From Promethearchaeota archaeon (GTDB lineage Archaea; Asgardarchaeota; Lokiarchaeia; Sigynarchaeales; SOKP01): a DNA stretch of 11,957 nucleotides. How positions within the stretch are numbered: the stretch's first letter is position 1; every line of letters begins with the position of its first letter. Location: contig JAEOTL010000548.1 in the NCBI GenBank assembly GCA_016839845.1, positions 1 through 11,957 of the forward strand, read 5' to 3'. The translations under genes were made by a program, and so were the position numbers. The notes beneath the pieces were generated by a model. It was not told the origin of the DNA, did not search any database, and worked only from the letters and a program-made list of their open reading frames with translations. Of this stretch, positions 1,944 through 5,333 are shown piece by piece.

Positions 1944-3698
1944 TTACTTATAATTCTGATTAACAAATTCCATAACATTTGAGATTTCTTCTAAATAGGT
2001 TTCTTTTTTCCCAAAAATATAAAATCTTACGTTGGGACCAGTACCAGAGGGTCTAAAATATAGTGTCGAATTTTCACTCTTTAGTTCAAAAATATCGATC
2101 ATACCGTTATTATCTGAGAGAGCATTAACCACATATTTTTTCTCTTTAATGATTATTGATTTTCCATCATTCTTCTCAAAGTTTTTTATTATTTTTACTT
2201 TTTCTTTATCTGTGGCATGTATAGTTCGGTTTATTCCCTTAATCGACCAGTCTATTGATTCTGAAATTAAATAACCTCTACAAAGTAATTCAGTTATTAA
2301 TACCAATGCTGGAACTGGATATTTATCGGCAATTATCTCGTGATCTGTTGTGAATGTATAATCCTTAGAATTTTCATTTTTTGACATATCTAAAATGTTA
2401 AGTGTATGTCCTCCACTTTCTTCCCAAAACACCATTAAAAAAGACTCACCTTCTAAGTGTTGGTTCTCTATAATTTTAATAATATGTTGTCTAAGTGGGG
2501 TTGCTCTATTTATTTTTGTTAGGTTTTTGTTCTCATCTTCATAGTATAGTATTGCCTTGTTAATCTTCGACTGCTCAACTTTAATACTTAAAAGGAAATA
2601 AAGAATGACTCCCAAGTGTTTGTATCCAACTCCAGTTAATATATTAATAAAACTAGTGTGGTCTCCTCTTAAATCACTTGGGATTGTTCTCACGTTAATT
2701 ATTTTCTTTCCATATTCTTGTGCTAAGATATTGTGCATTGCCGAATAAATTTCATTAGGGATGTAAGTGAAATATTCTCCATTTTGCTTCACATAGAGTG
2801 CGATCCTATCTCTATCAGCATCTAATAATAAAGCAATTTTAGAATCTGACCGTTCCATAATTTCTTTTAATTTTTCTTCACGAATGACCTTTATTGGATT
2901 AGGAGGATTAATTTCTTCTTCAATTAATATCACATTTGCTCCATAATACTTAAATAAATCTACGATCCCCTTTGCTTTCCCTAAATAGGGCCAAATCACA
3001 ATATTTCTATCCTTGATACTTCTAATTTCCAAGACTTTAGATAATAATTTTTTGATATACTCATTATTTCTCTCAATAGCATTAGTCAGAATTGGTTTAT
3101 AATCAGCTTCTAAATGAATTTCCGTATAGTCTAAAGCTTTTTGAGAAATTTCTTTAAAAAATTTACCAGACATAGGGATTGGGTAATCTATATAAAATTT
3201 GATCCCATTCCAAGAGATATCATTATGACTCGCAGTTAGTACAATGACTAGTTCTAGTTCCTTATATAACGCTACGGAAGCTGCGCCAAAGGGAGATGAT
3301 ACCTTGGACTCCTCAGGAGAATCTAATTGGTGAAAGACTTCAAATCCATCGTATGCAAATATCTCAGAGCAATATTTCAATAATAATTTCCTGCTTGGAC
3401 GGTTATCAGTAACAATTAGTACTTTTAAATTCTTGGGACCCTTTAATTCAATGAATTGTTGGCTAATTGCTTTAAAAACCCGTAAAAACAGAAATAATTT
3501 CCTATTGGAGAGAAAATATTTTTTATCATCTTCGATGATATCATATAGTTGGATTCTTAATCCTGATGTAGGTGCTACTATAGGGTCTATTATTGCTTTT
3601 TCTTCTTCAGATAATTTTGGTAATCTTAAGATCTTCACTGGACCTTTGACATCATTGAATTCTAGCTTATCATTTATAAACTTCGCCACAAATTTCAC
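1944..3698 (-). CDS. Alpha-D-phosphohexomutase (phosphoglucomutase/phosphomannomutase family), long form
   Basis: Likely interconverts hexose 1- and 6-phosphates in sugar-nucleotide or central sugar metabolism. The four family sites are present in order: an N-terminal TSGLR (44-48); the catalytic phosphoserine loop TASHN (155-159, Ser157); the metal loop DADRDR (293-298), keeping the three aspartates of DxDxDR; a sugar-binding loop EESGGHT (426-432); and a phosphate-binding loop RPSGTGP (549-555). At 584 residues it is much longer than usual archaeal PGM/PMM proteins (about 450) and nearer PGM2/PgcA-type enzymes. Oddities are Arg between the last two metal aspartates, an extra Gly in the sugar loop, and Gly for the usual Glu in SGTEP. 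The start is GTG at 3698, because an in-frame TAA lies two codons upstream. No clear Shine-Dalgarno is visible. The gene begins 10 nt after the longin-Arf stop, so the two are probably co-transcribed. Substrate is unknown. Confidence 0.88.
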   Translation of the reverse strand: MKFVAKFINDKLEFNDVKGPVKILRLPKLSEEEKAIIDPIVAPTSGLRIQLYDIIEDDKKYFLSNRKLFLFLRVFKAISQQFIELKGPKNLKVLIVTDNRPSRKLLLKYCSEIFAYDGFEVFHQLDSPEESKVSSPFGAASVALYKELELVIVLTASHNDISWNGIKFYIDYPIPMSGKFFKEISQKALDYTEIHLEADYKPILTNAIERNNEYIKKLLSKVLEIRSIKDRNIVIWPYLGKAKGIVDLFKYYGANVILIEEEINPPNPIKVIREEKLKEIMERSDSKIALLLDADRDRIALYVKQNGEYFTYIPNEIYSAMHNILAQEYGKKIINVRTIPSDLRGDHTSFINILTGVGYKHLGVILYFLLSIKVEQSKINKAILYYEDENKNLTKINRATPLRQHIIKIIENQHLEGESFLMVFWEESGGHTLNILDMSKNENSKDYTFTTDHEIIADKYPVPALVLITELLCRGYLISESIDWSIKGINRTIHATDKEKVKIIKNFEKNDGKSIIIKEKKYVVNALSDNNGMIDIFELKSENSTLYFRPSGTGPNVRFYIFGKKETYLEEISNVMEFVNQNYK

Positions 3699-3708
3699 CG
3701 TAAGTTAT

Positions 3709-4578
3709 CTATGATACTTGTTTAATTGCTTCTTTTAGTATTGCCAAAATTTTCTCTCGATACATGGGTTCGATCGCGATCATATCATAGGTTTTGATAA
3801 TTCGTTTTTCACTTGACAAGAACTTCTCACATAACTCAGGTGAAAGAGTGTTTGGCAAATCTTGTTTATTTGCGATCCCAATTACTAATTTATCTTTATA
3901 GTGTTTATCTAAAATATCGTGAATTATTTTTTTTGACCCAATTATGTTCTCATAGGTTGAATCTGTTACCAGCAACGTTATATCTGTCCCGGCTAGAAGT
4001 CCTTTCCAAAGTGAATGATACTGTTTTTGACCAGCAAAATCCCATATCGTTAGAGTTCTATTGAATTCGCTCCCATCATAATCCGCAATGTCGGCTGTAA
4101 TTGTGGGGACATATTCTAAGTCAACATTCTTCCCACAGATTAATTTTGTTAACGTTGTTTTCCCAACGCCCCCAAAACCGAGAATAGAGATTTTTATAGC
4201 CCCTAAAATTAAGTTATCTAATTCTTTTTCAAATTCATAAAATATACTTCGATTTCCAGCCCAGGATCCATCTTCTAAAATCTTCCCGTAGTTGTCAATA
4301 AATCTTGATCTTATGCTTAAGATTTTGGAATTAATTGATGCATCATCGTCCTCTAAATCTGTACATACTACGATTATAATGGTGTCAATGATGGTGTAAA
4401 AATACTTGAAGTCTTCTGTTTGGGTACTTTTAATATCGCTCTGACTGATTTCTTTCATAAATCCTGAGAATGCGCTCAAAAATCCTGCCAGAAGGTCCCT
4501 ATCTACATCTGATACACCATAGTTCCTGAACATCAATGATTTACCGTCTTTTGTAAGGATATTTATATATTGAATCAA
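3709..4578 (-). CDS. Longin-like domain fused to Arf-family small GTPase
   Basis: A GTP-binding switch protein with an extra N-terminal domain. Residues 1 to about 125 start with a strand/hairpin (IQYINILTKDG) and a helix (LLAGFLSAFSGFMKEI), then strands and a long helix. This pattern resembles longin/roadblock-type domains common in Asgard proteins; I assign it by pattern, not by search. Residues 129-289 are an Arf-like G domain: P-loop GFGGVGKTT (134-142), switch-I Thr159, WDFAGQ (179-184) and the Arf-style NKQD (237-240). G5 is divergent (MIAIEP, 266-271). There is no N-terminal glycine for myristoylation. The start is TTG at 4578; an in-frame stop lies just upstream and no ATG fits, while a TATA box 33 nt away supports it. 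It is the first gene of a probable operon with the phosphohexomutase. In eukaryotes, longin domains pair with Arf-like GTPases (SR-alpha/SR-beta); a similar in-cis arrangement is an inference. Confidence 0.9.
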   Translation of the reverse strand: MIQYINILTKDGKSLMFRNYGVSDVDRDLLAGFLSAFSGFMKEISQSDIKSTQTEDFKYFYTIIDTIIIVVCTDLEDDDASINSKILSIRSRFIDNYGKILEDGSWAGNRSIFYEFEKELDNLILGAIKISILGFGGVGKTTLTKLICGKNVDLEYVPTITADIADYDGSEFNRTLTIWDFAGQKQYHSLWKGLLAGTDITLLVTDSTYENIIGSKKIIHDILDKHYKDKLVIGIANKQDLPNTLSPELCEKFLSSEKRIIKTYDMIAIEPMYREKILAILKEAIKQVS

Positions 4579-4610
4579 ATTATTTACCGAAGAAATTTAT
4601 TATTGTAGAA

Positions 4611-4618
4611 TTATATAA
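4611..4618 (-). promoter_or_regulatory. TATA box for the longin-Arf gene
   Basis: TTATATAA, a perfect palindromic TATA element, ends 33 nt before the TTG start at 4578. With an archaeal TATA-to-start-site distance of about 25 nt, the transcript would have a leader of under 10 nt, which fits the lack of a Shine-Dalgarno. Confidence 0.55.
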
Positions 4619-4650
4619 GAATTATTAATTAAATATTAAATTTCGATAAA

Positions 4651-4680
4651 ATATATTTTTTGTAAAAGAGCATATTTTTA
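4651..4680 (+). promoter_or_regulatory. TATA-like elements for the coiled-coil gene
   Basis: Two AT-rich boxes, ATATATTTTT (4651-4660) and CATATTTTTA (4671-4680), lie 36-65 nt before the start at 4716 or 4722. Either could be the TATA element; the spacer is so AT-rich that the choice is uncertain. Confidence 0.35.
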
Positions 4681-4715
4681 CAAGAAGGATTGCTTAGAAA
4701 ATTTCATGGTGAAGA

Positions 4716-5333
4716 ATGCAGATGGGAGAACCAATTAAGGATGGCTTAGAAGAGATACTCGAGTTCATTAAAAATGCGGATGATAAAATTGATAAATTTG
4801 CCTCGGTACTTGAAAAGTTTGGACTTGACATAATAACCAAAATGGGGCAAACTAACGTAAAAATTAATATGCTCACAGATAAAGTTGAAAATGTGAGTAA
4901 AGCTACCATAGATGTAAAAGCGTTGCTCCCACAGCTGACTAATGTCATTGAAAATCAGAAAATTCTGGAGGCTGAACTGGATTTAATACGAACCCTAATA
5001 CAGAAATCTGATATTTCACTTCATGCAAGAAATGTTGAAAGTGAAACAATAAAAAGAGATACCACTGCTACTGATAAAAAACAGGCGATAATTGATCAAT
5101 TTAACACGTTAAAAGATCAACTAAATACGGGGGTTGATCCTATCAATGTGGCAGAAATCCTTGAAAATATTAAGGAAGATATATTCGTTTTCACTGGAGG
5201 GCATAGGATCCTCTATGAAATTGGTCAATATTCAAAAAGTTTAAACGGTTTAATGATCATTCCCGATGACTTAAAATATGATCTACAAGAAAAAATAATT
5301 TTCTGGATCAATAAGTTATCTGTAAAAGGATAG
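4716..5333 (+). CDS. Coiled-coil protein of unknown function, beside two GTPase genes
   Basis: I do not recognise a family. The 205-residue protein is soluble, with no signal peptide or membrane segment. Residues about 8-105 are almost entirely helical, with hydrophobic residues at heptad-like spacing (e.g. ILEFIKNADDKIDKF, then VKINMLTDKVENV and LEAELDLIRTLIQ), suggesting one or more coiled coils. A polar linker (about 105-122) leads to a C-terminal domain with GGHRILYEIGQYSKSLN (about 160-176) and a final helix. ATG at 4716 is the longest start. ATG at 4722 may be the true one, since the Shine-Dalgarno-like GGTGA (4708-4712) sits 9 nt before it but only 3 nt before 4716. The gene is divergent from the longin-Arf gene across a 137-nt spacer and ends 24 nt from the end of the Rab-like gene. 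A role as a GTPase partner is inference from position and shape only. Confidence 0.8.
   Translation: MQMGEPIKDGLEEILEFIKNADDKIDKFASVLEKFGLDIITKMGQTNVKINMLTDKVENVSKATIDVKALLPQLTNVIENQKILEAELDLIRTLIQKSDISLHARNVESETIKRDTTATDKKQAIIDQFNTLKDQLNTGVDPINVAEILENIKEDIFVFTGGHRILYEIGQYSKSLNGLMIIPDDLKYDLQEKIIFWINKLSVKG

Follow-up and report, generated by a model that had tools for sequence, protein, structure and literature searches.

How longin domains and Arf-type GTPases came to be partners in eukaryotic membrane traffic is an open question, and it is raised by a gene of a Promethearchaeota archaeon that appears to hold both parts in one chain. We analysed 11,957 nucleotides of contig JAEOTL010000548.1 (hereafter the window), for which an earlier note, made from the letters alone, had described a longin-like domain fused to an Arf-family GTPase at 3709..4578. 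The interval is right; the strand, missing from that note, is minus. The gene starts with TTG at 4578, ends with a stop at 3709-3711 and encodes 289 residues, and the plus strand of the same interval is interrupted by many stops. The longin-GTPase fusion is of a kind already described, in 2016 and 2024. What we add is its distribution, its association with other genes and its relatives with the reverse domain order, which together bring the longin-GTPase question closer to a test than a single gene would.

The fusion protein and its two domains

The fusion protein has 833 homologues at E <= 1e-3, and the nearest record, also from a Promethearchaeota archaeon, is 99% identical (among the best 120 of the 833 that were listed). 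Full-length relatives were found at 41/56 genome loci, titled Lokiarchaeota, Lokiarchaeia or Prometheoarchaeum, while the remaining 15 loci align with the G domain only and are in their majority titled Heimdallarchaeota. The 833 homologues and the 41 full-length loci rule out chance or artefact as the origin of the open reading frame (ORF). Alignment A1 holds 35 sequences, the window protein and 34 of the 41 full-length loci, with rows picked before counting, as were the 40 rows of alignment A4.

Because the structure matches of the full-length model were filled by GTPases, the longin part was modelled separately. Residues 1-128 alone gave a mean predicted local distance difference test score (pLDDT) of 81.8 and a predicted template modelling score (pTM) of 0.76. 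This model aligns to solved longin domains over 110-124 of its 128 residues (VIA; 50 matches listed), the matches listed including SR-alpha, delta-COP, AP subunits, Sec22b and Vamp7. In both models DSSP gives the order strand-strand-helix-three strands-two helices, with nothing helical before the first strand; in the N-terminal model the first strand lies at residues 2-9 and the terminal helices at 79-103 and 110-125. The canonical longin and roadblock orders of secondary structure are set out in a passage of PMC8833172, and with an initial strand, no preceding helix and two terminal helices, the order found here differs from that of a roadblock. As modelled, residues 1-125 are a longin domain. 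The N-terminus had been called longin/roadblock-looking, of which the longin half is borne out by the models and their fold matches, and the roadblock half is contradicted by the order of the helices. A roadblock/LC7 identity is excluded by the topology together with the VIA matches, although Ragulator roadblock chains do occur in the Foldseek list.

Sequence profiles recover the longin domain only in part of the family. The window protein gives no Pfam match at E <= 1 for residues 1-125, and no longin profile at E <= 10. The longin part passes a curated Pfam cut-off in 2/8 fusion relatives (P0129 with Fuz_longin_1 at 28.3, cut-off 26.1; P0171 with Clat_adaptor_s at 33.6, cut-off 22.5), and Fuz_longin_1 is the commonest Pfam longin match among the A2 sequences. 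Over the 35 sequences of A1 the longin domain is conserved like the G domain, with a mean majority fraction of 0.820 vs 0.787. Measured in runs of 20 residues, conservation within the protein peaks at residues 26-45 (0.993; the P-loop has 0.914 and G4 0.938). This first longin helix is marked by small residues as well as by its strong conservation, and its local pLDDT in the longin model is just 68-69.

In the GTPase domain, the motifs listed in the earlier note are all present: GFGGVGKTT from residue 134, WDFAGQ at 179-184 and NKQD at 237-240. K140, the switch I T159, D180, Q184, N237, K238 and D240 are invariant in 35/35, and the nucleotide-binding and catalytic motifs read as intact. The divergence of G5, noticed there as well, is a property of the whole family, in which the site is mostly (V/I)AI, with A268 invariant in 35/35.

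The description as a full Arf-like G domain holds in part. Arf has the best Pfam E-value (4.9e-15), with Roc close behind (1.8e-14) and Ras passing too, all three falling in residues 127-261 (scores in Table 1). Across the family members scanned, Arf ranks first or close to first among the profiles. The top PDB sequence match of the fusion protein is an Arf1 (E 1.5e-13), G4 of the family reads NKQDLP, and switch II contains an invariant Trp. Against a plain Arf assignment, G3 is WDFAGQ and not of the WDxGGQ form (A182 is invariant in 35/35), whereas the compared Arf sequences have WDVGGQ. Moreover, the G domain follows a longin in 35/35 and does not begin the chain with an Arf-style helix of its own. 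By its place in the chain the longin could stand in for the membrane-binding N-terminal helix of Arf, as the earlier note suggested.

The tree, also proposed in the earlier note, was built on 59 selected rows, a part of the sequences available and with no SR-beta among them. It places the fusion-family G domains in one clade (99/99), beside Ras/Rab with 86/94. In the approximately unbiased test, neither a grouping with Arf (p-AU 0.493) nor one with Rag (p-AU 0.385) is rejected, so that the Ras/Rab placement does not decide the affinity of the G domain. Profile, structure and tree disagree on plain Arf vs plain Rab membership. SRPRB scores far below Arf where both are listed (27.3 vs 85.0, 27.5 vs 82.7 and 18.5 vs 64.6 bits). 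The 50 structure matches listed for the full-length model include neither SR-beta nor Rag, an absence that does not show either of them to be different.

Distribution and the reverse domain order

Among 227 genomes of the phylum, the A1 profile finds a related fusion in 125 at E <= 1e-40, a wide conservation across Asgard genomes. Genome-wide counts rest on 10-14 candidates scored per genome, and an absence holds at the stated cut-off and is not proof of absence. Among the A1 matches listed, many span profile positions 1 to about 287 and others only a part. Other fusion relatives carry the depositors' names Helarchaeota, Freyarchaeota and Jordarchaeales. Longer proteins were also observed. A Lokiarchaeota genome (G002, that of locus L006) encodes several with an N-terminal longin-GTPase pair, for example L204 with 880 residues, and L206 (587 residues) and L207 (581 residues) are second, longer fusions in which the pair is followed by some 300 more residues.

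In addition, three genomes (G006, that of L056, Candidatus Heimdallarchaeum endolithica, as well as G013 and G019) encode many Arf-family proteins of about 290-340 residues in which the G domain comes first. The reverse-order proteins collected are L155-L184, from these three genomes, and L213-L232. Their G domains are clearly Arf in Pfam, with 109.5 to 128.5 bits, far over Ras, and form one group in the tree (91/90), whose placement relative to ArfR and eukaryotic Arf is left undecided. Weak longin-type Pfam matches were obtained in the C-terminal part of 5/10 reverse-order proteins scanned, and none in the other five. L171 matches Fuz_longin_1 at 2.6e-4 (and Robl_LC7 at 0.0039), L182 matches Intu_longin_1 at 0.0034, and L178, L181 and L183 lie at 0.03-0.07.

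Profile-profile comparison of the fusion longin with eight reverse-order C-termini gave a probability of 85.4 (E 5.8e-6, 68 columns). The control, a weak one of six Rag-like C-termini with 32% mean column identity, gave 0.3. The N-terminal-longin profile scored above all shuffles for 9/14 reverse-order C-termini (2,800 shuffles) and, in further genomes, for 14/20 (4,000 shuffles). The remaining 5/14 and 6/20 were not above every shuffle, and the longin-like call is not accepted for those. In the supported members, these comparisons point to a longin-like C-terminal domain. A full-length reverse-order profile detects 49/227 genomes at E <= 1e-40, and three genomes (G138, G150 and G154) belong both to these 49 and to the 125 found with the A1 profile.

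Longins of the same type were also seen without a GTPase. L154, from a Heimdallarchaeum genome, and L153 (237 and 256 residues, respectively) continue after the longin with about 100 residues resembling a putative winged-helix domain.

Gene neighbourhood and the proposed switch

The neighbourhood was counted over all 41 full-length loci, contig ends excluding one for the coiled-coil gene and five for the gene of RasL, a Rab/Ras-like small GTPase. A gene for a coiled-coil-looking protein lies upstream of the fusion in 40/40 testable loci, on the opposite strand in those tabulated. With a profile derived from the Loki-type loci themselves, this gene was found (E <= 1e-20) in 60/61 genomes with a Loki-type fusion (E <= 1e-115) and in 0/166 others. 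In the sole exception, G155, the fusion gene sits 774 bases from the first base of its contig. The two genes are head-to-head in 58/58 genomes that have both on one contig, with a median gap of 204 bases between the matched parts (maximum 1391), and on separate contigs in two genomes. A RasL gene (>=55% identity, <=3.5 kb upstream) is present in 32/36 testable loci, in 19 on the strand of the fusion and in 13 on the opposite one. Since it is found on either strand, its proximity has been kept through rearrangement.

The other surroundings are summarized with the features of the fusion gene in Table 1. The phosphohexomutase-like gene is immediately downstream in 40/41 loci, and in L021 it is placed after a duplication; no functional link to the fusion is evident. 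The duplication (L021:8001-12254) comprises the fusion gene and RasL as a unit, and the P-loop of the second fusion protein is degenerate, reading GLGGTGKE, which possibly makes this copy a pseudo-GTPase partner. A GGH(R/K)ILYEI-like motif is conserved close to the C-terminus of the coiled-coil protein, whose final 80 residues or so resemble the C-termini of L199, L200, L202 and L203 (263 to 794 residues; E 3.7e-06 to 9.7e-05), which makes it possible that this part is a recurring Asgard module. The Pfam scan of nine window proteins gave no match to a secretion or signal recognition particle (SRP) family.

Table 1 Features of the window around the longin-GTPase fusion gene (positions of the whole stretch)
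Feature	Position	Strand	Evidence
Longin-GTPase fusion gene	3709..4578	-	ORF; 41 full-length relatives among 56 loci
Longin domain, residues 1-125 (predicted)	4204..4578	-	
First longin helix plus its start, residues 26-45	4444..4503	-	Top conserved 20-residue stretch
GTPase domain, residues 127-289	3712..4200	-	Pfam Arf 55.9 bits (cut-off 22.3), Roc 54.4 (27), Ras 47.1 (21.6), MMR_HSR1 32.9 (21.9)
G1 / P-loop GFGGVGKT, residues 134-141	4156..4179	-	G134, G137, V138, G139, K140 invariant 35/35; T141 at least 90%
G3 WDFAGQ, residues 179-184	4027..4044	-	W179, D180, A182, G183, Q184 invariant 35/35
G4 NKQD, residues 237-240	3859..3870	-	Invariant 35/35
Coiled-coil-looking protein, 205 residues, divergent partner gene	4716..5333	+	Upstream in 40/40 testable Loki-type loci
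Intergenic stretch of 137 bases between both divergent genes	4579..4715	.	ORF coordinates, sequence
Rab/Ras-like small GTPase (RasL), 192 residues	5358..5936	-	Pfam Ras 157.1 bits
Phosphohexomutase-like gene, directly downstream	1944..3698	-	PGM_PMM_I 40.0 bits (cut-off 22.5); PGM_PMM_II 26.0, under its cut-off of 29.3

The account we favour, at a probability of roughly 45%, is that longin and GTPase form a switch within one chain, in which GTP controls the longin as a platform and the coiled-coil and Rab-like proteins encoded nearby are its working partners. In the models the last longin helix leads straight into the GTPase domain. The longin would dimerise or dock a partner via its nearly invariant first helix, and the GTP or GDP state of the attached Arf-like domain would open or close this platform in cis. 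The output may then pass to the coiled-coil protein as effector or tether, and also to the neighbouring Rab-like GTPase, with RasL acting either upstream or downstream of the fusion; the site of action is probably the cell membrane. Longins and roadblocks share a common mode of GTPase binding, according to the passage on it in PMC3521125, and the existence of the opposite order elsewhere hints that longin and GTPase are usefully paired in cis. Also in favour of the switch are the longin fold, the invariant G1, switch I, G3 and G4 residues, a longin conserved on a par with the G domain, the coiled-coil gene of the genomes with a Loki-type fusion, and the RasL gene close by, duplicated with the fusion in L021.

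Several observations weigh against this switch. RasL is absent in 4/36 testable loci (L014, L024, L039 and L040). Among 20 fusion loci, the 14 that are not Loki-type have neither the coiled-coil nor the phosphohexomutase gene, both of which are retained in the six Loki-type ones (L129-L134). The weak Pfam matches of the coiled-coil protein (COG3_N at 6.1e-05 in 3/14, and others) were rejected as apparent coiled-coil background. Finally, the conserved first helix is present too in the GTPase-free longins L152, L153 and L154, so it is no pointer to a contact in cis, and we dropped it as proof of one. More likely, judging from these sequences, it marks a longin-longin or partner contact.

The last point leads to an alternative that we consider unlikely, namely that the longin is purely a dimerisation module, like the C-terminal roadblocks of Rag proteins, in an obligate dimeric GTPase whose nucleotide switch does not involve the longin. 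The small residues and strong conservation of the first helix, and its recurrence in longins lacking a GTPase, would fit such a module. So would the second L021 copy with its degenerate P-loop, which adjoins a normal copy like one half of an active/inactive pair, and the Rag-like fusions that were modelled as homodimers in the account of Tran et al. (PMC10933270). In the fusion, however, the longin comes first, and the chain stops with the G domain, without the C-terminal roadblock required for Rag/Gtr. The profile PF04670 Gtr1_RagA is matched in just 3/35 sequences at E <= 0.01, though in 15 of a wider 29. Quite improbable is a longin that acts on the nearby Rab-like GTPase in trans, either promoting its nucleotide exchange or docking it, with the Arf-like domain as upstream input, in the manner of the first longins of Mon1-Ccz1 and Fuzzy-Inturned, which are of the same canonical type; the longins of Sec22b, Vamp7 and delta-COP fit equally well or better, and the four loci without RasL also stand against it.

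The one-chain switch can be approached with concrete proteins, namely the widely conserved one-chain version, the constant partner gene of Lokiarchaeia and the reverse-order version of Heimdall type. Two questions become testable with them: whether the longin responds to the nucleotide bound by the GTPase it is attached to, and whether the same interface is used in both orders. The coiled-coil protein is a first candidate effector.

Comparison with known systems

The analysis of longin-Arf-like fusions in Lokiarchaeum probably goes back to Klinger et al. in 2016. A passage of Dey, Thattai and Baum (2016, PMC4917890) gives 41 longin-like domains for Lokiarchaeum, five of them fused to Arf-like GTPases. 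As in that description, the fusion combines a longin-like domain with a small Arf-like GTPase and belongs to a Loki genome, and the two families are likely identical, the 2016 fusions being compared by their description only. Distribution, gene neighbourhood and reverse order do not appear in the passages that describe those fusions. The corresponding parts of Tran et al. (2024, PMC10933270) report for Prometheoarchaeum MK-D1 74 GTPase sequences, 26 of them with roadblock or longin domains, among which longin-GTPase fusions are included and modelled; the class is named Rag-like and placed close to Arf. The same account finds it difficult to match Asgard GTPases to regulators by genome layout, and states that in MK-D1 the GTPase genes do not as a rule share operons with genes for roadblock, longin or TRAPPC3 proteins. 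Here, in contrast, genes for a coiled-coil protein and for a second GTPase are conserved neighbours of the longin-GTPase gene.

The passages on related proteins in PMC4915359, PMC6141808 and PMC9834061 contain no description of the fusion family, and a literature search on related terms, with subscription papers mostly outside its reach, found none of the reverse order. Novelty in print is not claimed for the reverse order, nor for the neighbourhood, for which the literature was not searched by name.

The family shares with Asgard ArfR the Arf-type G4 motif NKQDLP. ArfR has an N-terminal amphipathic helix, as stated in a passage of PMC12554972, whereas a longin precedes the G domain here, and the tree keeps both apart without rejecting their union. 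Mon1-Ccz1 and Fuzzy-Inturned, described in a section of PMC8833172 as triple-longin heterodimers acting on Rab in trans, differ from the single chain with one longin and its GTPase.

It is possible, though doubtful, that longins and Arf/Ras-type GTPases were coupled in cis early in Asgard history and on two or more occasions, with the longin leading in Loki-, Hel-, Odin- and further lineages and the GTPase leading in Heimdallarchaeum and others, where its profile is clearly of Arf type. The eukaryotic trans pairs (SR-alpha/SR-beta, Arf and adaptor subunits, Mon1-Ccz1 and Rab) would then descend from this one-chain relation or re-use it, and in Lokiarchaeia the fusion would drive a module of its own, made up of two GTPases and the divergent coiled-coil partner. 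A likeness in eukaryotes is with the SR-alpha longin and SR-beta, and with Arf and the small adaptor subunits, where a longin is likewise paired with an Arf-type GTPase; those pairs are made of two chains, whereas the partners described here share one, and SRPRB is a secondary profile match of the family.
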